A stretch of DNA of 20,210 nt from a virus: positions 921 to 21,130 of the IMG/VR virus record IMGVR_UViG_3300030103_000739; one strand, 5' to 3'. The position numbers and the translations under genes were made by a program. Positions 7,763 to 18,771 of this stretch are shown one piece after another; within the stretch, counting starts at the first letter, position 1, and each line of letters starts with the position of its first letter. A model generated the notes under the pieces. That model ran no database searches. It had not been told where the DNA came from and saw nothing but the letters and a program-made list of their open reading frames with translations.

Positions 7763-8017
7763 TTACTTACCCATTGTCATCCACACTGCACCTGCAATAA
7801 ACGTCAGCAGTGCGACAGTGGTTACTTTTACTACAGTTGACCAGATAGACCTACGTGTATCTCTCCACGCCTCTATTAAGTTACGCATCTCTAGTATATC
7901 TTTTTGTGCATCATCATCAAGTAACCCAATAGAACGCAGTGCCTCTTTAGCACCACGCCTAGCTGCGTTGTCTAGCATTTCTTCTAGATCGTCAGGGGTA
8001 AGTTTGATGTCACTCAT
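7763..8017 (-). CDS. Small protein with C-terminal membrane helix, DUF6127-like, 84 aa
   Basis: The N-terminal ~50 residues are amphipathic and charged (LEEMLDNAARRGAKEALRSI, then DILEMRNLIEAW). A basic turn RDTRR leads into a hydrophobic segment at about 60-81 (VVKVTTVALLTFIAGAVWM), ending in MTMGK. This layout matches the small phage/prophage family I know as DUF6127. It has one predicted membrane helix with positive residues before it, so the N-terminus should face the cytoplasm. The start ATG overlaps the preceding stop by 8 nt. Position right after the fibre and adhesin genes recalls T7, where the holin gp17.5 follows fibre gp17, so a holin-like lysis role is possible. No endolysin lies nearby, and the family name is from memory. 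Confidence 0.55.
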   Translation of the reverse strand: MSDIKLTPDDLEEMLDNAARRGAKEALRSIGLLDDDAQKDILEMRNLIEAWRDTRRSIWSTVVKVTTVALLTFIAGAVWMTMGK

Positions 8018-8231: not shown

Positions 8232-10820
8232 TTATGTTTTTACTAATAATTCTGTTGTTGAGATAGCAGTTCCTGCCAATACACTTGGGCTATCCGCTGT
8301 TTCACTTATTGTTCCGTCATTCTGTACAAAGTATTGCTGCGCTGTGGTAAGACCGATTTGGTTATCTGACACAGAGCCTATAACATCTACTGATGCGTTG
8401 CCGCCATCTGCCACCTCGCCTCTTGTGGTTGCTATGGTGCTAAGGCTAGTTACAATAGCCTCGCCCCTGTCATCTGAATGTGTGTCATTTGCGTAAGCAA
8501 TAACTACCTTATTAGCATTACTGTCAAATGCTGCTCCTGTTTGAAATACAGCATTAGACCCACTAAAAGCAGTTTCAGTATCAAAACTTATTGAAGTGCC
8601 AGAAACAGTCCCAACAATAAATTTACCTATATCTGAGTCTCCTCTGTCCTCATAGGAAATGACAACTTTGTTTACATTGGTATCAAAAACTGCACTTGTT
8701 CCCTGCGTGTTCCCTGTATTAAAAATAACCTCACTTCCAAAACTTATAGAAGTGCCCGATACCGTACCTACAATTGCTGTGCCTTGATCAGAATTGCCAT
8801 TGTCTCTAAAGGCCAAAACTACCTTATTGTTACTGCTGTCAAAAGCACCTACTATTTGTGATGTTTCTCCTGCATTAAATACAACGGCACTACCGTAAGA
8901 TATGCTTGTTCCACTAACCGTACCTACAATTGCCGTGCCGTGGTCACTATTACCTGCGTCTTTATAAGCAATTACCACTTTGTTATTAGAGCTATCAAAG
9001 ACTACTGCATTTTGTTGTGAACTAGCACTTTCATATACAACAGGTGTTCCAAACGATATGCTTGTTCCACTGACCGTACCCACAGCAGCGGTTCCATAAC
9101 TACTATTTCCACTATCTCTATAAGCAACAACCACTTTATTGTTACTACTGTCGAAAGCGGCTGCAACATCATATGCATAGTTTGCCCCACTATTAAATTG
9201 TGTAGGTGAACCAAAGCTAATCGATGTTCCACTTACCGTTCCAACAATACCTTTACCTCGTCCTGAGTCTCCTGCGTCATTATAAACAATAACTACTTTA
9301 TTACTATCGCTATCAAAAACACAATCCACATTAGAAGTCCCGCCCCCTTCAAAAACTACAATACTACCAAAACTAATTGAAGTTCCAGACACAGTGCCTA
9401 CAATTGCTTTTCCTTTATCTGAGTCACCTCCATCAACATACGCAATTACAACTTTGTTATTGCTACTGTCAAAAGCAACATGAGAAAGATTAGTTGTCCC
9501 AGATTCAAACGATACTGCTGTGCCAGTAGAACCTGCCTCGCCTGTCTGAAAAGCCACGCCCCTCGACATACCAATGTAGTTTTCTGAGGTGAGGTTTTTT
9601 ACATCTCCTGCACCAGTATATACTACAGCTTTACCTTTGCTTGAATCACCTGCATCTGTAAAAGCCAAAACAGTTTTATTTGCTGTTGCAGCATGGGCGT
9701 GATTAACATTACCAGTAGTAATACTAGCATCAATTGCAAAGGCTGATCCATGTGTAAATGCTGAAGTTGTTGCAGAACTCGTGAACATATTCAAAGCACC
9801 ACCATTATCTCTAGTGGCAATAGTAATTTTATTTATACTACTATTAAAAGAAACACCTATATTTGTTACTTGTGCAGCAGTATAAAAGTTAGAAGGTGAT
9901 GTAAAAGAAATACCTGTTCCTGAAACCGAACCTATAACAGCTTTACCTTTGTCGTTATCACCCCCATCAGCATAAAATATGTGAACCCTATTGATATTAG
10001 GATCGTTGACTACTTTAGTGAGTATTGTAGCTCCACTTTCAAACTCTACTGCTGAACCAAAACTTATATCAGTTCCCGAAACAGTTGCAACTTTTGCATT
10101 TCCTGCACCAATAACATATCCTATTACGTGCTTATTATTTGCAACATCATATGCTACGGAGACGTAGGTAGTGGTTGCACTACTAAATGTAGCAACAGAA
10201 CCAAAACTTATACTTGTTCCCGATACAGTTCCAACTATAGCCTTACCATAATTGCTGTCACCATTATCTCTAAAAGCAATAACAACTTTATTAGCAGAGG
10301 TGTCAAAAGATATGCCTATACTATTATTAGTGTTCCCACTCTCAAAAGCAGTAGCAGACCCAAAACTTATAGAATTATCTGAGGGGTCTACAGTCCCTAC
10401 AATAGCAGTTCCTGCTCCACTATTTCCTTGGTCTTGATAAGCTACAACAATTTTGTTGTTTGAACTATCAAATACTGGAGTAGTATGACTTACTTGAGCA
10501 CTTTCAAATACAACAGCCGTGCCAAAAGAAATTGAATCACCACTAACAGTTCCTACAATAGCCGTACCGTAGTTTGAGTTGTTTTCATCTTTATATGTAA
10601 TAACTACTCTGTCACTATTACTGTCGTATGCTACTCCTTGGTTATTAGCTACTCCTGATTCAAATTCAACATTACTACCTTTAGCTTCAGTCAATGTAGT
10701 CGTACTTACAACACTCACAGTTCCATCAGAGTTGACAACAACTGGCTTACCACTGGACAACGTGCCACTAGCTACCGCTTTAAATTCACCACTCTCTTCA
10801 GCACCTATACGTTTTAGCAT
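8232..10820 (-). CDS. Double seven-bladed beta-propeller adhesin-like virion protein, 862 aa
   Basis: This is the largest of three paralogues. Residues 1-38 form the conserved head (AVASGTLSSGKPVV, then NSDGTVS). Two arrays of a repeat of about 48 residues follow: seven units at about 50-405 and seven at about 435-795. The consensus is F-D-S-S-N-N-K-V-V-I-A-Y-x-D-x-G-(D/N)-S-x-x-G-x-A-I-V-G-T-V-S-G-T-S-I-S-F-G. Between the arrays lies the tail motif LTSENYIGMSRG, which ends the single-propeller paralogues. The true C-terminus is the conserved tail (QQYFVQNDGTISE to LLVKT). Units in array 2 are far more alike than those in array 1. Seven four-stranded units per array fit seven-bladed propellers. 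Position after the tail fibre suggests a receptor-binding or virion-surface protein. The start is 2 nt after the upstream stop, with AAAGGG as SD. Confidence 0.7.
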   Translation of the reverse strand: MLKRIGAEESGEFKAVASGTLSSGKPVVVNSDGTVSVVSTTTLTEAKGSNVEFESGVANNQGVAYDSNSDRVVITYKDENNSNYGTAIVGTVSGDSISFGTAVVFESAQVSHTTPVFDSSNNKIVVAYQDQGNSGAGTAIVGTVDPSDNSISFGSATAFESGNTNNSIGISFDTSANKVVIAFRDNGDSNYGKAIVGTVSGTSISFGSVATFSSATTTYVSVAYDVANNKHVIGYVIGAGNAKVATVSGTDISFGSAVEFESGATILTKVVNDPNINRVHIFYADGGDNDKGKAVIGSVSGTGISFTSPSNFYTAAQVTNIGVSFNSSINKITIATRDNGGALNMFTSSATTSAFTHGSAFAIDASITTGNVNHAHAATANKTVLAFTDAGDSSKGKAVVYTGAGDVKNLTSENYIGMSRGVAFQTGEAGSTGTAVSFESGTTNLSHVAFDSSNNKVVIAYVDGGDSDKGKAIVGTVSGTSISFGSIVVFEGGGTSNVDCVFDSDSNKVVIVYNDAGDSGRGKGIVGTVSGTSISFGSPTQFNSGANYAYDVAAAFDSSNNKVVVAYRDSGNSSYGTAAVGTVSGTSISFGTPVVYESASSQQNAVVFDSSNNKVVIAYKDAGNSDHGTAIVGTVSGTSISYGSAVVFNAGETSQIVGAFDSSNNKVVLAFRDNGNSDQGTAIVGTVSGTSISFGSEVIFNTGNTQGTSAVFDTNVNKVVISYEDRGDSDIGKFIVGTVSGTSISFDTETAFSGSNAVFQTGAAFDSNANKVVIAYANDTHSDDRGEAIVTSLSTIATTRGEVADGGNASVDVIGSVSDNQIGLTTAQQYFVQNDGTISETADSPSVLAGTAISTTELLVKT
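8440..9487 (-). repeat. Propeller array 2 of the 862-aa protein (blades 8-14)
   Basis: Seven repeats of about 48 residues, beginning HVAFDSSNNKVVIAY and ending EAIVTSLS. Blades 8-12 are the most uniform in the window: nearly every one has DSSNNKVV and GTVSGTSIS. Codons differ between blades, so the similarity is stronger in protein than in DNA. Boundaries are approximate. Confidence 0.8.
9600..10640 (-). repeat. Propeller array 1 of the 862-aa protein (blades 1-7)
   Basis: Seven repeats, beginning GVAYDSNSDRVVITY and ending KAVVYTGAG before LTSENYIG. Blades 4, 6 and 7 are clearly diverged: blade 6 lacks the GTVSG part and blade 4 has a short D-loop. The hydrophobic strand pattern is kept. 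The strand VEFESG before blade 1 is a good candidate for the 'velcro' strand closing the ring. Boundaries are approximate. Confidence 0.75.
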
Positions 10821-10822
10821 AG

Positions 10823-12262
10823 TTACCCTTTCACTATTAATTTAGTTGCTGACACAGCCGTACCTGCAAAGACGCTAGGATCATCAGCCGTTGTACCTAG
10901 TGTGCCGTCATTTTGAACAAAGTAACTTTGCCCTGCCGTCAGCCCAGACAGGTTGTCAGCTATTGCACCTTGCGTGTCTACAATAGCCCCTGCACCAGAA
11001 GCTGCACCGCTACGAGTTATGCCAATATAGTTTTCTGAAGTAAAGTTACTTGTTGCAAGACTTGTGTCTAAAGCTTGAAGTGTCCCATAATTTGAGTTTC
11101 CAACGTCTTTATAAACAAGAAGAACTTTTCCTGCGCTGCTATCAAATGCAGAATCAGTATGGACTATATTACTACTACTTATTCCTACTTCTGTCCCAAC
11201 ACTAATAGATGTACCACTTACAGTTCCAATTATTCCTGTCATAGCACCATTTGCCTTATCAAAGAAGATAAAAGTTTTATTATTTGTGCTGTCATACTGA
11301 GCACTAATTGAATCAGTGGCTGAAGTACCAGAAAAATTAATCTCTGATCCAAATGACATTGTATTATCTGAATTATCTATTGTTCCAACAATTGCAGAAC
11401 CATAGCTACTATTACCTACATCTGTAAATGCAATAACTATTTTTTGTGCAGTGCTATCATACGTGGCTGATATACCATGTGTATCAGCAGCAGCAAAGGT
11501 AGCTCTAGATCCACCACTTATAGATGTGCCGCTAACAGCGCAAACAATATAGTATCCATCGTTATTTGAATAATCCCTATAAAAAACAGCACTTCTATTT
11601 GCGTTGCTATCGTATACTACACTCATACTGTTTCCAGGCCTATTATCCTCAAGTATAGCTGTAGTACCCCAACTTATATCAGTTCCACTAACCGTACCAA
11701 CGGCTGCTGCTACTTTATAACTAGAGTGACCCCCACTCCAAATACATACAACTTTGTTTGCACTAGTATCATAAACAGCAGTGCTCTGATCTATTGCCCG
11801 ACTTTCTATTACTACCTCTGTTCCAAGACTAACTGACGTTCCGCTAACTGTTACAACTCTAGACGCTAGGTAATTACCAAGACCACCATTAGAATAAACA
11901 AGTATAAACTTGTCACTATCAGGATCATATACAACTGATTGCCCTTGAGTAGGTATATTAGATTCTGATGCATAAGTTCCTGCAGTTCCAAGAGTTACAG
12001 TACCTCCAGAAATTGTTCCTGCAATAACCGTACCAGTATATGAATTTGCAGGACCTGCATACATAAGAACAAAAGTCCCAGAACCATCTGTAGCTATAGC
12101 GTTACTTTGAGCATTTTCTTCAGCAAATATAGTTGTAGCACTAAAAGGTGCGCTTACAGTTCCATCAGTATTGACAACTACAGCCTTACCATTAGTCAAC
12201 GCACCACTAGCTACAGCGTGTTCCTGCCTTGGTAAATTCTGATCGTTGCCTATGACACGCAT
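10823..12262 (-). CDS. Single seven-bladed beta-propeller adhesin-like virion protein, 479 aa
   Basis: Paralogue of the 481-aa and 862-aa proteins. The head is AVASGALTNGKAVVVNTDG (about 17-35). Seven repeats follow at about 53-405; the most typical is blade 5 (TYDSTAQKIVIAFTDVGNSS). Then comes the tail: FTSENYIGITRSG, LTAGQSYFVQNDGTLG and SATKLIVKG. It has the most diverged blades of the family; several lack the D-x-G-N-S loop (blades 1, 3, 4 and 6). It is therefore probably an old duplicate with a different ligand surface. It follows the 81-aa gene with its own AGGA SD (7-nt spacing). Its terminal codons GTG-AAA-GGG-TAA contain the SD of the next gene. A surface-exposed receptor-binding or decoration role is inferred from repeats and position. 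Confidence 0.68.
   Translation of the reverse strand: MRVIGNDQNLPRQEHAVASGALTNGKAVVVNTDGTVSAPFSATTIFAEENAQSNAIATDGSGTFVLMYAGPANSYTGTVIAGTISGGTVTLGTAGTYASESNIPTQGQSVVYDPDSDKFILVYSNGGLGNYLASRVVTVSGTSVSLGTEVVIESRAIDQSTAVYDTSANKVVCIWSGGHSSYKVAAAVGTVSGTDISWGTTAILEDNRPGNSMSVVYDSNANRSAVFYRDYSNNDGYYIVCAVSGTSISGGSRATFAAADTHGISATYDSTAQKIVIAFTDVGNSSYGSAIVGTIDNSDNTMSFGSEINFSGTSATDSISAQYDSTNNKTFIFFDKANGAMTGIIGTVSGTSISVGTEVGISSSNIVHTDSAFDSSAGKVLLVYKDVGNSNYGTLQALDTSLATSNFTSENYIGITRSGAASGAGAIVDTQGAIADNLSGLTAGQSYFVQNDGTLGTTADDPSVFAGTAVSATKLIVKG
10826..10831 (-). promoter_or_regulatory. Shine-Dalgarno inside the Lys-Gly codons of the upstream gene
   Basis: AAAGGG is the SD for the 862-aa gene (5 nt before its ATG). 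It is also the Lys-Gly codon pair just before the stop of the 479-aa gene. Confidence 0.7.
11050..12105 (-). repeat. Propeller array of the 479-aa protein (7 blades)
   Basis: Seven units can be lined up on the recurring Y-D-S/T-x-x-x-K core strand and the V-S-G-T-x-I/V-S strand. Unit 1 (AIATDGSGTFVLMY) and unit 7 (SAFDSSAGKVLLVY) mark the ends. Boundaries are approximate, as the units are degenerate. Confidence 0.7.
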
Positions 12263-12284
12263 TATTGAGTCCTACTCTTCTTCT

Positions 12285-12530
12285 TCAGGCTTCTACCCAA
12301 TCAGGGTTAGCTGACCAAGTTGAGCCATCTAACTTATACTTATTGCCCACCCAATCGCTTGGTGCGTTGGTTACGTTCTCTGTAATAGTAGTATTGCCAC
12401 TGTTGAGATCAGCGATAATAAACTGAGCAGGATCACCTACTGTGATATTATCTGACGTTGCTGTGATTTTTACGTCATCTGCAAGTAGATACTTGCTTAA
12501 CTTAGTTGATGTTTCTACGATAGTTTTCAT
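12285..12530 (-). CDS. Small conserved marine-phage protein, 81 aa
   Basis: A compact beta-rich protein beginning MKTIVETSTKLSKYLL and ending in a WSANPDWVEA-type tail. The order is: short helix, strand KITATSDNITV, GDPAQFIIADLN, then NAPSDWVGNKYKLDGSTW. I recall near-identical layouts as uncharacterised small proteins in cyanophages and other marine phages, often beside fibre genes. Its function is unknown; a fibre accessory or chaperone role is only a guess. It interrupts two of the propeller paralogues. Its SD (GAAAGG, 12538-12543) lies inside the last codons of the 481-aa gene. Confidence 0.65.
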   Translation of the reverse strand: MKTIVETSTKLSKYLLADDVKITATSDNITVGDPAQFIIADLNSGNTTITENVTNAPSDWVGNKYKLDGSTWSANPDWVEA

Positions 12531-12533
12531 TCT

Positions 12534-13979
12534 TTAACCTTTCACTATTAGTTCCGTAGCTGATATAGCAGTTCCTGCTGTTATTGAGGGACTTCCTGCT
12601 GATGTTCCAAGTGTACCATCAGCTTGCACAAAATATGTTTGCCCTGCTGTGAGGCCACTTTGGTTTCTGTCTATTGTGTTAGCTGTGTTTATTGATGCAC
12701 TCTGAGTGGTTGCAAACGCACCATCTGAAAAACCTATAAAGTTTTCTGAGGTGATGTTGCCCGAAAGAGGAGAAAAAGAAACTGCTGTTGCGTATTCACT
12801 GTTACCTGCATCACCAAAAGCTATGAGACTTTTGTTTACATTGCTGTCAAACGATATGGCAGGATAGACCGCTGTTGCTCCTGCAAAATCTGTTCCTGTA
12901 TCAGCAGCAATCGTTGTACCAGAAACACTTAATGAGAACACAAAACCACGATTTGAATAACTTCCACTTACGGTGTATGGAAAGACAACAATAACTTTGT
13001 TAGCGTTGCTATCAAACACAACATTGTCGGGTGAGGCTTCTCCATAAGTTCCTGCACTCGCAAAGACTAAAGCAGAACCAAAAGAAATAGATGTGCCAGA
13101 AACAGTCCCCACTTTTGCTGTCCCTTTCTGACTATTATCTTTATCCCCATAAGCAAAAACTACTTTGCCATTTGAGCTATCAAATGTACCTCCCAAACGA
13201 TTCATTTCACCACTATGAAATGTTACTGCTGATCCAAAAGAAATAGATGTACCGCTTACTGTTCCAACAACAGCTTTACCATATTCTCCATCATCCTGAT
13301 CCATAAACCCAATAACTGTTTTGTTGTTAGTGCTATCGTAGACGACTCTATTCAACTGAGAACGAGCACTTTCATAGACGACAGGTGAACCAAATGAAAT
13401 AGATGTACCAGAAACCGTTCCAACGATTGCCGTTCCATACTCAGATGTTCCTGCATAAGCAATGACAACTTTTCCTGCTGTACTGTCGAAATCAAGATCC
13501 ATTTGTTTTGCTGCGCTTTGAAATTCTGTAGGACTTCCCCAAGTTACTGTCGTTCCTGATAAAGAACCAACCAATGCATGACCATGATCGCTATCATCAC
13601 CACGCCTATAGATAACAACAATCCTATTGTTTGTGCTATCAAAACACGCACTAATTTGTTGATTATCACTTGCCTCTGCTACGGCATCAGTACCAAAAGT
13701 AACACCACCATCAGACGCCACAGTTGCAACTACATATCTCATGTTACTGCTAGTGCGATAAACAATTATGTGTTTATTGTTAGAGCTATCAAAAACAGAA
13801 GCAAAAAAACCAGAAGTTATTGAATTATGAGCACCTTCTGTTCCCAAGCTTGCAGCCGTTTGAGTAATTTCACTAACAGTTCCATCTGTATTTATACAGA
13901 CAGGTTTACCATTAGTCAAAGCACCAGAAGCTACTGCCCTGACCTGACCATCCTTCGCAATATTACCAAAAGCTTTCAT
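12534..13979 (-). CDS. Single seven-bladed beta-propeller adhesin-like virion protein, 481 aa
   Basis: First of the three paralogues in transcription order. The head (VRAVASGALTNGKPVCINTD, about 13-32) is followed by a linker, then seven repeats at about 55-405. Blades 3-5 are the most regular: SEYGTAIVGTVSGTSISFGS, and VYDSTNNKTVIGF in blade 4. The tail begins ITSENFIGF, runs through LTAGQTYFVQADGTLG and ends SATELIVKG. The start ATG 13977-13979 follows the 120-aa gene by 14 nt with a GAAAG SD. Seven four-stranded repeats suggest a closed propeller displayed on the virion, by context as a receptor-binding or decoration protein near the tail. No enzymatic residues can be picked out. These repeats are not the Asp-box type (S-x-D-x-G-x-T-W) of sialidases. 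Confidence 0.7.
   Translation of the reverse strand: MKAFGNIAKDGQVRAVASGALTNGKPVCINTDGTVSEITQTAASLGTEGAHNSITSGFFASVFDSSNNKHIIVYRTSSNMRYVVATVASDGGVTFGTDAVAEASDNQQISACFDSTNNRIVVIYRRGDDSDHGHALVGSLSGTTVTWGSPTEFQSAAKQMDLDFDSTAGKVVIAYAGTSEYGTAIVGTVSGTSISFGSPVVYESARSQLNRVVYDSTNNKTVIGFMDQDDGEYGKAVVGTVSGTSISFGSAVTFHSGEMNRLGGTFDSSNGKVVFAYGDKDNSQKGTAKVGTVSGTSISFGSALVFASAGTYGEASPDNVVFDSNANKVIVVFPYTVSGSYSNRGFVFSLSVSGTTIAADTGTDFAGATAVYPAISFDSNVNKSLIAFGDAGNSEYATAVSFSPLSGNITSENFIGFSDGAFATTQSASINTANTIDRNQSGLTAGQTYFVQADGTLGTSAGSPSITAGTAISATELIVKG
12538..12543 (-). promoter_or_regulatory. Shine-Dalgarno inside the last codons of the upstream gene
   Basis: GAAAGG, 7 nt before the ATG of the 81-aa gene, overlaps the terminal Val-Lys-Gly codons (GTG-AAA-GGT) of the 481-aa gene, directly before its TAA (12534-12536). 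Confidence 0.7.
12755..13815 (-). repeat. Propeller array of the 481-aa protein (7 blades)
   Basis: Seven units beginning SVFDSSNNKHIIVY, CFDSTNNRIVVIY, DFDSTAGKVVIAY, VYDSTNNKTVIGF, TFDSSNGKVVFAY, VFDSNANKVIVVF and SFDSNVNKSLIAF. Spacing is about 45-55 residues. Boundaries are approximate. Confidence 0.82.
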
Positions 13980-14370: not shown

Positions 14371-17031
14371 CTATCCAAATACTATTGCCATAGCAATGGC
14401 AAATCCTTTAGTGGCAGCACTACCTGCAGCGTAAGTTTTTACATCTGATGCAGGAATAGTTTTCATTGTGCCGTTATCATTTACTATAAAACCGTCAGCA
14501 TCTGCCAATGTTATTGAACCACCAACAGAAGTATCACCATCTAATAAATTTATCTCTGATGCAGTTGCCGTAGCACCGTCAAGTATGTTTAACTCTGCAG
14601 CCGTAGAAGTTACAGCAGTTCCGTTTATTGCTAGTTTATCTGTGACAACGTTAAACGTACCATTGTCTTCTATCCTAGCTACCTCTGTACCATCTCTTTG
14701 TTGAAAGATAAGATCTTTAGCATCTACAACAGGTCTGATAATTACATCACTAGAAGAGTTAGTGATTCTAAGTATCTCAGTTCCACCGTCTTGAAACTTA
14801 AAGTCACCACCGTCTGCATCTAGGATAATATCTCCTGCGACATCTACTGTCAAGTCTCCAGAGCTAAGATCAATCTCTGTTCCATCAATAGTAATGTTAT
14901 CGACAACTACACCTGCGTTGGCTGTAACCACACCACCAACAGCTAGAGTAGATGCCATATCAACAGCACCGTCAATATCAACAACATCTAGGTTAGCTGT
15001 TCCATCTACATCAATGTCACCACTAATATCTAGAGAAGCAGCAATAAGTTGATCTACCTGTAAATCCTCATGATTAGACCCTAGCTTTAACTCAAACTTT
15101 GGTCCTGAAGTATTATAGGTAAACGTAGCATCATCACCACTACCACCCTCTATTGTAATACCTGCACCATTAACTACAGCAGATGTACTGTTACCACTGT
15201 CAAGAACAATGTTATGATCGTTAAGATTTACAGTGGTAGAGTTTACTGTTACAGTTGTACCCGATACAGTTAAGTCACCTGTAACTGTAAGGTTGTCTGC
15301 TACTGTTACCTCTGAGGTGCTGTGACCTAATGTGATAGCTGTACCAGATATACCAGTACCAATAGATACAGACTCACTGCTGTTAGCCGTATCAATTATA
15401 AGATAAGCATCTGATCCTTGTTTAATTGTAAATGCAGTGGCTGAGTTATCAGTAACAGCAACGTTAATATCTGTAGCGTCAGCACTAATAGAGTCTAGTG
15501 CAATGTCACCAACGTTAGTAATATTGTTGTCACCAAAGCTAGTAGCACCCATTGTTTTGTTTGTAAGTGTTTGTGTTGCTGTCGTACCAACTATCTCTTG
15601 ATCACCACCAGGAGGCAAAGTTAGAACGTTGGTAACAGAGGCTGAGTGTGGTTGTGACTTAACTGTTTGACCATGAGAGTTAGATTCACAGTTAAACACC
15701 ACAGTACCAGGGTTGTTGTTGCCTTTTACAACTACTTTGCCTGTACCGTTAGGTGCGAGATCAATATCAGCATTTGATGTAGTAACAATATCGTTACCGT
15801 TCATATCAAGGTTACCACCTAACTGTGGAGTACTATCCTCTACTACGTTAGATAGAGCAACACCACCAACAGCAAGACCTGATACTATCGTACTACGTGT
15901 AATCTTTTTAAGACCACCACCAGATGTATCTACAGCAAGAAACACGTCATCGTTAGCAACTGTACTAATTTCAGATAAATCGCCCACAGCAGTAGGGTTA
16001 AAGTTTGTACCGTCTGCTACAAGTATGTGTCCTGAAGTATTTGTACCCATAGTGAGGTCATCACCACCAATAGTGAGATCTCCAGTCAATGTAAGATTTC
16101 TTATACCAGTGTAATCTTTGTTAGCATCTAATATAACTGCTTTAGAGTTAATAGCTGTGCCTGTACCTGTAGATCCTAGATCAAGAGCGTTAAGTTCTCC
16201 TACCACTGCTGTAATACCATCTAAAGTATTTATTTCTGAAGTGGTAGCAGTAACACCATCCATAATGTTAAGTTCAGCAGCAGTTGCACTTATGGCTGTA
16301 CCGTTAAAGTTTATTGCATCTGCGTGAAGTGTACCGTCAAAAAAGCCATCTTTGAACTCAAAGGAACTAGAACCTAAGTCTACGTCATCATCTGTTGTAG
16401 GAAGTATTGATCCATTATTAAAAGTAACCTGTGTTTCACCACCTGCAGTAACTGTAATTACGTCAGATCCACTGAAAGCTATGCTTGTGTTAGAGTCAGC
16501 ATCACCTGAAATACTATCTAGCTGTACTGCACCTACATTTGATAAAGCAGCATCACCAAAGTCTACAGCACCTGCAACGGTAAGTGTTCCTGATACATCT
16601 ACATTACCGTTTATATCGACAGTGGTAGCAGCAATCTGTATCTCTGTATCTGCAACAAGGTCAAGCTGACCATCAGCACTGGAGTTTATAAATATAGCTG
16701 TGTCACGAAACTGTATCTTTTCGTCAGAAGCTATAAGAATGTCATCAGAAAACTCAAAGTAATCTTCGTCTTCCATCCATTTAAGTTCACCGTCATTAGT
16801 CTCACCATCAAAGGTTACAGTAATATCTGTACCTGCTGTGGCATCACCGATAGTAATGTTAGTTCCTAACAGTTTAGTGATAGGTCCACCCTCTGCAGCC
16901 GTACCATCGTGAGTGTGTCCTGTGCTTGCTGCAAACGCAGCTAAGAGTTGATCATATTCATTGTTGAACAGATCAGCAGTAATAACATCACCGTCTGTAA
17001 AACTAGATTGTCTCGTGTATGTATTACCCAT
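14371..17031 (-). CDS. Long mosaic tail fibre protein, 886 aa
   Basis: The N-terminus (residues ~1-55) is the typical virion-attachment part of marine phage fibres, with FTDGDVITADLFNNEYDQL and GHTHDGTAAEGGPI. The rest is repetitive beta structure poor in Cys. Recognisable fibre modules are: T-A-A-E-L-N / S-E-I-N / G-E-L-N repeats at about 244-284; a VGDLSEISTVANDDVFLAVD module near 345-370; a TQTLTNKT motif near 480; and TVNSTTVNLNDHNIVLDSGN near 590-610, a module common in cyanophage fibres. A second TAAELNILDG/SEINLLDG pair lies at about 804-830. The C-terminus is AATKGFAIAMAIVFG. No chaperone or peptidase domain is seen. It should attach to the tail and contact the host surface. The start follows the nozzle gene's stop with no gap (TAG then ATG), with TAGGAGC as SD. 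Confidence 0.8.
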   Translation of the reverse strand: MGNTYTRQSSFTDGDVITADLFNNEYDQLLAAFAASTGHTHDGTAAEGGPITKLLGTNITIGDATAGTDITVTFDGETNDGELKWMEDEDYFEFSDDILIASDEKIQFRDTAIFINSSADGQLDLVADTEIQIAATTVDINGNVDVSGTLTVAGAVDFGDAALSNVGAVQLDSISGDADSNTSIAFSGSDVITVTAGGETQVTFNNGSILPTTDDDVDLGSSSFEFKDGFFDGTLHADAINFNGTAISATAAELNIMDGVTATTSEINTLDGITAVVGELNALDLGSTGTGTAINSKAVILDANKDYTGIRNLTLTGDLTIGGDDLTMGTNTSGHILVADGTNFNPTAVGDLSEISTVANDDVFLAVDTSGGGLKKITRSTIVSGLAVGGVALSNVVEDSTPQLGGNLDMNGNDIVTTSNADIDLAPNGTGKVVVKGNNNPGTVVFNCESNSHGQTVKSQPHSASVTNVLTLPPGGDQEIVGTTATQTLTNKTMGATSFGDNNITNVGDIALDSISADATDINVAVTDNSATAFTIKQGSDAYLIIDTANSSESVSIGTGISGTAITLGHSTSEVTVADNLTVTGDLTVSGTTVTVNSTTVNLNDHNIVLDSGNSTSAVVNGAGITIEGGSGDDATFTYNTSGPKFELKLGSNHEDLQVDQLIAASLDISGDIDVDGTANLDVVDIDGAVDMASTLAVGGVVTANAGVVVDNITIDGTEIDLSSGDLTVDVAGDIILDADGGDFKFQDGGTEILRITNSSSDVIIRPVVDAKDLIFQQRDGTEVARIEDNGTFNVVTDKLAINGTAVTSTAAELNILDGATATASEINLLDGDTSVGGSITLADADGFIVNDNGTMKTIPASDVKTYAAGSAATKGFAIAMAIVFG
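14540..14625 (-). repeat. C-terminal AELN/SEIN repeat pair of the fibre
   Basis: Encodes TAAELNILDGATATASEINL plus LDG, a second copy of the ~17-residue repeats found 1.6 kb upstream in the same gene. It is preceded by the same I/F-N-G-T-A-(I/V) lead-in. Confidence 0.8.
16170..16300 (-). repeat. N-terminal AELN/SEIN/GELN repeat triplet of the fibre
   Basis: Three tandem ~17-residue units (TAAELNIMDG, TSEINTLDG, VGELNALD), preceded by FNGTAISA. This repeat type is widespread in marine phage fibres. Confidence 0.82.
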
Positions 17032-18771
17032 CTAACGTCTTGCTCCTACTTGATATTCTAATTGAAACCCTTTTAGGGAATATGGTGCTGTCTCCCCACC
17101 ATCTTTAATTCTTAACGCTACAGAAAAACCTGATCCTTCTACTGACTGTCTTACGAGTGGCTGTGAAGGACCACCGAAAACAAACTGTGCAGCACTACTA
17201 GTTGTACTAAAAGTTGCAGAACCAAACTGTGCTGCAACTTGAGAACTGTCTAAAGCATATGCTGCAGGTCTTGCAGAGTCAGAAGCTTCGTTGTCGTAAC
17301 GGACAAATAAATCTGCATCTATTGCTGACTCAGGTTTAAAGTTAAGGATAACTCTTTGCATGTGTTTTCTAACACCAGTGTCTCCAAAACTTAAATCAGG
17401 ACTTCTGTATCTTGCTAGTATTGCTGTGCCATCAAAGGTGTTACCTGCTTCTTGTCTGTGAACAAATCCTGAGAAGTCACCATGTATTACTCTTACATCT
17501 CCATCAACAACTAAAGCATCTGTAGCAGATGGTTTTACTCCACGTATTTCTGAAAACTCAAACTTGTCTGCTCTCCTAACGCAGATAATACCTCTTGTTA
17601 AATTTTCACCCTGTCCTGCTTTTGAAAAGAATATTCTATACTGTGTTTTGTCTGGAATAACTACACTGTCAAAAACTGTAGAGTCTTTAATGTTAGCATC
17701 AAAAATAGACTGCACGTTTTGTGTAATAGCACCAAGAGCCGTATCACCAATCCTTGCAGTAGCAGCAACAGTTCTGAGTCCATCAGGACCAAGGAATAAT
17801 AAGTCACCTGCAAATTCTTGGATAGTGTCTTTGTTTACACATCCAATATCTCTAGTGACTGGTTGTATAGCAAAGTCACTGAGAGTAGATCCTGTCATTT
17901 TAAATATTCTGTTTTCACAAAATATAAATAAAGAATCCCTAAATACTTTTAGTCCGACAATGTTATCATCTACTTTGATAGTTCCTGCACCGTCAGCAGA
18001 CTGAAAACCATCTTCGTCAAAAGGTTCGCTGAATACTAAAGTCTGTGGTGTGCTAGACTTACCTGCGTAAAACATGTGATTTTTAAAAGCTACAACTATT
18101 GTAGAACCTGCTACAGAACTTTCACTGACATCTGTTGCCGATAAAGAAGAGTTAAATATAGTTGGAGCATTTGCACCGTCAACAACTATAATCTTTTCGT
18201 TACCGTCAAAGTTATATCTTTCAAAACTGTATTTATCTGCACTTGTTCTACCAGTATCTCTTTCAGTCCAGGACTCTGACACTACATCATTAATAGCGTG
18301 ATTGGCAGCAGTTGTGCTTGTAGCAGCACGAGTTACACCTGTAAAACTAGTAGAGGTAACACCAGTGTACGTAAACAACTCATCGTTAATCTGTAGTGTT
18401 CCACTAGAAGAAAAGCCTGTTGTAGAATCTACAGTTATAGTTCCAGAACCTGTCATACCTGTAGTGGAAACAATTTTAGTTGCAAGCTCAGTAGATGCAG
18501 AACTAAATATCTTCTCGCCTCTAGCTGCTAACACTTTGTCTGCAAAGTTAGCAACCATCAGTATCTTTTCACCAGAGCTAGATGTTTGAGGCACTTGTTG
18601 ATTTACGTATTTACGAAAACCGTTTATTCTCCTGTAACCACCCTCAATGTCAGGCTCAAAGTTCTCTAACTCTAACGCTTCACCTGGTTGCATTAAGAAT
18701 GTAGAACGATTTAAAACTAAGCCACCCTCACAGTTAAATGCTGCAGGTTGTGCTTGGGATAGATCTGGCAT
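17032..18771 (-). CDS. Tail nozzle / tail tubular protein B-like protein, 579 aa
   Basis: The N-terminus has the hallmark seen in nozzle or 'stabilisation' proteins of short-tailed phages: a G-G-L near residue 17, F-L-M-Q-P-G-E-A-L-E-L-E-N-F-E-P and G-G-Y-R-R-I-N-G-F. A beta-rich body with propeller-like strands follows (KIIVVDGANAPTIF near 195, then LVFSEPFDEDGF, DSLFIFCENRIFKMTG and GDLLFLGPDGLRTV). The end is FQLEYQVGARR, also typical. Family members (P22 gp10, T7 gp12) form the hexameric distal tail through which DNA passes. An extra domain of about 70 residues sits at ~94-168 and is shared with the preceding adaptor gene. The start overlaps the adaptor's stop (TAATG at 18771). Assignment rests on motifs and gene order; P22-like and T7-like versions cannot be separated by eye. 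Confidence 0.68.
   Translation of the reverse strand: MPDLSQAQPAAFNCEGGLVLNRSTFLMQPGEALELENFEPDIEGGYRRINGFRKYVNQQVPQTSSSGEKILMVANFADKVLAARGEKIFSSASTELATKIVSTTGMTGSGTITVDSTTGFSSSGTLQINDELFTYTGVTSTSFTGVTRAATSTTAANHAINDVVSESWTERDTGRTSADKYSFERYNFDGNEKIIVVDGANAPTIFNSSLSATDVSESSVAGSTIVVAFKNHMFYAGKSSTPQTLVFSEPFDEDGFQSADGAGTIKVDDNIVGLKVFRDSLFIFCENRIFKMTGSTLSDFAIQPVTRDIGCVNKDTIQEFAGDLLFLGPDGLRTVAATARIGDTALGAITQNVQSIFDANIKDSTVFDSVVIPDKTQYRIFFSKAGQGENLTRGIICVRRADKFEFSEIRGVKPSATDALVVDGDVRVIHGDFSGFVHRQEAGNTFDGTAILARYRSPDLSFGDTGVRKHMQRVILNFKPESAIDADLFVRYDNEASDSARPAAYALDSSQVAAQFGSATFSTTSSAAQFVFGGPSQPLVRQSVEGSGFSVALRIKDGGETAPYSLKGFQLEYQVGARR
18268..18490 (-). repeat. Inserted small beta-domain in the nozzle-like protein
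   Basis: Contains GTITVDSTTGFSSSGTLQIN, FTYTGVTSTSFTGVTR and STTAANHA. The same pattern occurs in the adjacent adaptor gene at 19135-19350. Boundaries are approximate. Confidence 0.82.

Follow-up and report, generated by a model that had tools for sequence, protein, structure and literature searches.

The window analysed here, a stretch of 20,210 nucleotides that forms part of a 21-kb IMG/VR virus record, exhibits three ORFs of 481, 479 and 862 amino acids on its - strand, each made of repeated units of about 52 residues (Table 1). All three are found in the ORF list at the positions given by the initial annotation. Its description of three tandem genes holds as to place; the genes are not strictly adjacent, however, as a conserved 81-aa gene, g81, separates those of the 481-aa and 479-aa proteins.

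The gene order along the - strand is adaptor, 579-aa probable nozzle, 886-aa fibre, a 120-aa protein (g120), the cassette (481 aa, g81, 479 aa, 862 aa) and further proteins up to one of 1277 aa. The adaptor, the nozzle, part of the fibre and several downstream proteins are collinear and homologous with Puniceispirillum phage HMO-2011, with identities, in the same order, of 55% for the adaptor, 53% for the nozzle and 58% (best segment) for a 657-aa protein. By this conserved structural gene order and these homologues, the window phage appears to be an HMO-2011-type podovirus. The PHROG matches of the 579-aa protein include head closure and internal virion proteins, and HMO-2011 gp44 is annotated as 'amidase'. 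An insert rich in Thr and Ser, about 65-75 aa long, seems to be present in similar form in the nozzle and the adaptor (its ends read ..TLYIGGEQITYTG.. and ..TLQINDELFTYTG..); it gives PHROG matches to baseplate wedge proteins, and the HMO-2011 nozzle and adaptor seem to lack it.

The cassette is located between the 886-aa fibre and genes further along that are common to HMO-2011. The corresponding site is occupied in HMO-2011 by consecutive small tail fibre genes, and in CRP-1 by genes for tail fibre and tail structural proteins. By synteny with both phages, the propeller genes are encoded in the tail fibre region, the context of a receptor-binding protein. The 84-aa protein directly after the cassette is unusually conserved (58-92% identity across relatives); its end resembles a membrane segment, and it is possibly a holin.

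Table 1. Features of the cassette and its surroundings, in window positions
Feature	Position	Strand	Evidence
SU10-type adaptor, 314 aa	18771-19715	-	Pfam PF24175, E=1.3e-14
Tail protein, 579 aa, HMO-2011 gp44 homologue, probably nozzle	17032-18771	-	53% identity to HMO-2011
Fibre protein, 886 aa, upstream neighbour of cassette	14371-17031	-	partial match to HMO-2011 tail fibre region
Slot-1 propeller protein, 481 aa	12534-13979	-	ORF, blades, AF2, fold matches (seven-bladed lectins, sialidase propellers)
Slot 1, N-cap	about 13830-13979	-	
Slot 1, seven blades	about 12732-13829	-	
Slot 1, C-cap	about 12537-12731	-	
g81, 81 aa, between slots 1 and 2	12285-12530	-	g81-only search of IMG/VR
Slot-2 propeller protein, 479 aa	10823-12262	-	ORF, blades, census
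Slot 2, N-cap	about 12119-12262	-	
Slot 2, seven blades	about 11027-12118	-	
Slot 2, C-cap	about 10826-11026	-	
Slot-3 double propeller protein, 862 aa	8232-10820	-	ORF, blades, AF2, double-propeller matches
Slot 3, N-cap	about 10665-10820	-	
Slot 3, propeller 1	about 9576-10664	-	
Slot 3, linker	about 9510-9575	-	
Slot 3, propeller 2	about 8409-9509	-	
Slot 3, C-cap	about 8235-8408	-	
DNA-conserved island: slot-1 C-cap, g81, slot-2 start	12153-12759	-	blastn, mostly 82-88% DNA identity
DNA-conserved island: slot-2 C-cap, slot-3 start	10704-11048	-	blastn
DNA-conserved cap island	8232-8411		blastn
84-aa protein, possibly holin	7763-8017		

The blade unit follows the pattern F-D-S-x-x-N-K-V-V-I-A-Y, D-x-G-N-S-x-x-G, T-A-I-V-G-T-V-S-G-T-S-I-S-F-G. 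Units cut at the core-strand motif and then aligned number seven in the 481-aa protein, seven in the 479-aa protein and 7+7 in the 862-aa protein, that is 28 blades, and a profile derived from the units, with their number left free, gives identical counts. The count proposed in the initial annotation is thus borne out. It is far from chance, since 211 of 237 non-redundant complete relatives also hold 7 or 14 blades by the same kind of profile. Outside the blades, each protein has a short N-terminal cap and a C-terminal cap, features absent from that annotation.

Predicted fold and blade number

Structures were predicted with AF2 from alignments of 36 relatives (481-aa protein) and 26 relatives (862-aa protein). 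Both models are all-beta. The 481-aa protein exhibits a mean pLDDT of 86.8 and a pTM of 0.80; for the 862-aa protein, a two-domain chain, the values are 83.1 and 0.51, the latter being expected because the two domains are loosely linked. The four-stranded blade, with the strand pattern A-B-C-D, is seen by DSSP in both models. In the strand list of the 481-aa model only six D strands come after a C strand, which suggests that the N-terminus may supply the seventh.

In a Foldseek search against the PDB, sialidases obtain the lowest E-values, and the best whole-domain scores are those of seven-bladed Photorhabdus lectins. The top whole-domain match, PLL2 (6rgg_B; TM 0.77, rmsd 3.9 A), spans the whole ring. 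The 862-aa model matches known double-propeller proteins, such as 1nr0 with its two seven-bladed propellers. The top relatives in a viral library are unnamed viral proteins and one protein of Lentibacter phage vB_LenP_ICBM2 (hereafter ICBM2). At the sequence level, a profile search of the PDB with the propeller proteins yields no real match, and none to PLL; PHROGs contains no family matching them, and their Pfam matches (Cyclophil_like2, Agenet, BNR_2) were set aside as weak or spurious.

If the fold-search E-values were taken as the guide, the proteins would be sialidase- or BNR-class enzymes with surface polysaccharides as substrates, and the weak BNR_2 match of the 481-aa protein, which at E=0.0086 does not reach the curated cut-off, points the same way. 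The best whole-domain TM-scores are nevertheless those of lectins, and the three propeller proteins contain neither Asp boxes (S-x-D-x-G-x-T/S-W) nor a motif of the R-I-P type. A sialidase identity was rejected for want of Asp boxes, and we regard an enzymatic role as very improbable.

The number of blades is maintained among relatives. Nearly all complete ORFs of 54 first-round loci hold 7 or 14 blades. In a census of 237 complete representatives below 70% identity, drawn from 305 distinct proteins collected by three IMG/VR searches, 133 proteins hold 7 blades, 78 hold 14 and 26 another number (4 to 15). The odd counts look mostly like blades missed by the profile or split in two: counts of 13 reflect a gap of one weak blade or the absence of the last weak blade, counts of 8 and 15 arise from split matches lying 16-36 residues apart, and the short counts (4-6) come mostly from divergent proteins, which partly reach 6-7 with a profile rebuilt on them. 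Among the 237 representatives there is no clear departure from seven, with a few divergent proteins still at 4-6; the drift away from multiples of seven that would have spoken against closed propellers was looked for and is not seen. Blades of propeller 2 in the 862-aa protein exhibit a mean identity of 57%, and adjacent blades appear similar enough for the gain or loss of a unit to be easy. That seven is held constant all the same points to closed rings. Structure prediction, fold search and blade census thus support the proposal of the initial annotation, and closed seven-bladed beta-propellers, not open solenoids, are strongly predicted.

Some relatives carry the propeller in other arrangements. 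A 2350-aa protein (L067:5469-12521, on a contig labelled Euryarchaeota MAG) holds 28 blades (4 x 7) in four cap-propeller-cap modules, with a g81 relative after it and a 1010-aa tail-tip- or host-specificity-like protein upstream. A 1908-aa protein (L038:439-6162) joins Mtd_N, the N-terminus of the major tropism determinant, to one propeller of the same family and seven FG-GAP_2 repeats; by its sequence, this fusion would connect the propeller family with phage tropism proteins of a known class. One propeller is fused to several hundred other residues in the proteins L021:7281-9248 (656 aa) and L016:2400-4991 (864 aa), which suggests additional mounts for the same propeller head.

Slot-specific caps and exchanged propellers

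Using g81 alone as a blade-free query, we retrieved 80 IMG/VR contigs. Away from contig ends, a propeller gene lies immediately upstream of g81 in 77 of 77 cases and downstream in 68 of 72. The layout is fixed (slot 1, g81, slot 2, slot 3), every slot being single or double. Exactly three propeller genes are present in 43 of the 47 complete cassettes; singles and doubles add up to three to six propellers per complete cassette, and the single-single-double form of the window is the commonest (16 of 47). The identity of g81 across the 79 other contigs is 74-96% (median 86%), against medians of 44% for g120 and 31% for the nozzle, a conservation that is partly a selection effect, the loci having been picked by g81 similarity. 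The g81 relative in ICBM2 is annotated as a tail fibre or tail assembly chaperone protein.

We compared caps and propellers by a slot test on the 55 contigs kept after collapsing near-duplicates, with labels permuted within contigs (2000 permutations). The nearest relative lies in the same slot for 97% of C-caps and 78% of N-caps, versus 34-35% after permutation (reached in 0 of 2000 for both). For propellers the figure is 42% versus 35% (reached in 145 of 2000). Caps are slot-specific; propellers hardly are.

Different slots of different phages share propellers that are 90-98% identical, in many independent contigs. Where this sharing across slots is clearest, identity is mostly 0.9-1.0 over all seven blades and drops at the blade/cap junction, the C-cap being down at the level of paralogues, 0.57-0.69. 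A cluster analysis indicates that the same propeller types occur alone or as the first or second half of doubles, depending on the locus: the type in slot 1 of the window is the first half of doubles in loci L002 and L010, and that of the second slot-3 propeller occupies the second position of a double in L010. This first analysis used single linkage at 60%, and the permutation test is the one to rely on. At the DNA level, the cap islands (Table 1) remain conserved in many loci in which the blades of these genes are diverged. Synonymous divergence in slot 2 is 0.32-0.37 in C-caps versus 1.2-1.5 in the blade core; the lower cap value does not occur in every pair, being reversed in slot 1 of L009. 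The cassette also crosses phage backbones. The slot-1 proteins of the window and of L003 are 73% identical, while the L003 nozzle is 77% identical to that of CRP-1, the window nozzle 53% identical to that of HMO-2011, and the two nozzles only about 30% identical to each other.

These patterns might be attributed to descent and artefact, the constant seven being merely inherited and the apparent swapping reflecting ancient paralogy or mis-assembled metagenome contigs. All relatives do have one common ancestor, and common descent is part of the reason for the constant seven; it is insufficient alone because whole rings are being exchanged. The relatives are nearly all metagenome contigs (the exceptions are ICBM2 and one single-cell virus contig), in which repeats can be mis-joined, and mis-assembly could imitate some of the swaps but can hardly explain so many independent ones. 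The near-identical propellers combined with paralogue-level caps, and the similar slot-1 proteins on HMO-2011-like and CRP-1-like backbones, make this explanation very unlikely.

Proposed function and known systems

Across 735 blades, variation is greatest in the D-A loop columns, where the commonest residue has a mean frequency of about 26%; the corresponding values are 45% for the B-C loop, 59% for the A-B hairpin and 81% for the C-D hairpin. Propeller topology places the two loops together on one face, the most variable one, and the two hairpins on the opposite face. Close slot-1 relatives exhibit a pN of 0.31-0.39 in variable columns versus 0.10-0.13 in others, and a dN/dS of 0.45-0.54 versus 0.21-0.32; for close pairs overall, dN/dS is 0.45-0.63 in the B-C and D-A loops versus 0.20-0.32 in strands and conserved hairpins. 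It is below 1 everywhere. The loop variation fits a binding face and falls short of proving positive selection.

The initial annotation suggested a multi-receptor or glycan-binding surface, or a decoration system. We infer that the former is the best reading, because of the tail-fibre gene position, the lectin-like fold, the single most variable face and the exchange of whole propellers. With a probability of about 70%, the cassette encodes propellers that bind receptors, probably glycans, and that can be exchanged on mounts specific to each slot, the phage being HMO-2011-like. The three propeller genes and g81 would constitute the host-recognition cassette of this short-tailed marine phage, each protein presenting a closed seven-bladed head, or two in a row, between its caps. 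The slot-specific caps probably serve to attach each protein to a site of its own, on the tail or on the fibre assembly, and the B-C/D-A face probably binds cell-surface glycans, at several equivalent sites at a time. Phages would switch specificity through recombination that moves entire seven-blade propellers from slot to slot and from phage to phage; with breakpoints where the blades meet the cap, the head would be replaced while the mount is left intact and the ring unbroken. The modular exchange, the blade number, the cassette layout and the slot specificity of the caps are supported by the comparisons above; the virion or tail location, the ligand and the docking role of the caps are suggested by gene context, fold and analogy with known phage propellers (phi11, PhiKZ gp131C, PRD1 P2). 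Trp makes up 0.2% of blade residues and Trp-based sugar sites of the PLL type are absent; a sugar site, if there is one, must therefore be of a different kind. Counting against the receptor-binding reading, receptor binding could fall mainly to the 886-aa fibre next to the cassette.

Alternatively, the propellers may decorate the capsid or tail and help virions to stick to particles or mucus-like material, without specific receptor binding. Several paralogues per phage, and blades rich in Ser/Thr/Gly/Asn and devoid of a catalytic motif, would suit such a role. Yet the cassette sits where HMO-2011 and CRP-1 have tail fibre genes, and the exchange of whole propellers with slot-fixed caps is expected of specificity determinants. 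Gene position and variability pattern favour adhesins, and we consider decoration unlikely. Least probable of all is a structural part of the tail. Seven-bladed propellers do form the core of T7 gp12 and of the SU10 nozzle proteins (PMC6702177, PMC9509320), but the window phage has a separate probable nozzle, and a channel-lining protein is not expected to swap among three slots or to vary so much.

Extending the receptor-binding reading, we tentatively suggest, at slightly less than even odds, that ocean phages of several backbones take their seven-blade adhesin heads, which would be interchangeable, from one shared pool. Each phage would display three to six of them at three addressed tail sites, its specificity being a combination from a common library, re-drawn by recombination at conserved cap sequences. 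If so, recognition here has a defined and countable make-up: three slots, heads that are single or double, and a propeller library whose members can be catalogued and tested individually on glycan arrays. It would also be a testable example of repeat proteins that keep to exactly seven units during whole-ring exchange, because only a closed ring works.

The closest relatives in a phage record collection are few: the only ones with the propeller are ICBM2 (gp49 and gp48) and Marine virus AG-345-O18, at 26-33% identity. As in the window, the g81 relative of ICBM2 adjoins a propeller gene. Each of the two viruses has one divergent propeller protein: that of ICBM2 shows 4 recognisable blades and that of AG-345-O18 shows 7, of which several are weak. 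No three-slot cassette is seen in the stretches read. We found no paper on propellers in HMO-2011, pelagiphages or marine phages.

The PLL/PHL lectins of Photorhabdus (PDB 6rgg, 8q81, 5c9o) exhibit the same closed seven-bladed ring of four-stranded blades as predicted here, with whole-domain TM-scores of 0.67-0.77 (normalised by the lectin). Their repeated blades give repeated sugar sites, which use Trp (PMC5584973). Unlike them, the window propellers, at 10-13% sequence identity and lacking Trp-based sugar sites, are phage-encoded, capped on both sides, partly double and subject to cassette exchange. Membership in the PLL family was rejected, there being no sequence homology and no Trp-based fucose sites.

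Among phage adsorption proteins, propeller domains occur in PhiKZ gp131C, phi11 Gp45 and PRD1 P2, three proteins with a proven or putative role in receptor binding; gp131C, located at the periphery of the baseplate, has seven blades, and those of phi11 and PRD1 have five (PMC4901313). The role proposed for the window propellers is similar. A PDB profile search finds no sequence relation to these three proteins, none of which is described in PMC4901313 as a three-slot exchangeable set. The propellers of T7 gp12 and the SU10 nozzle likewise are seven-bladed and belong to short-tailed phages; they form one hexamer lining the DNA channel and are interrupted by inserted domains (PMC6702177, PMC9509320). 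Finally, domain shuffling in phage receptor-binding proteins is seen as ongoing diversification (PMC10684548). In the cassette described here, by comparison, the unit exchanged is a complete seven-blade ring, which moves among three gene slots and between single and double positions.
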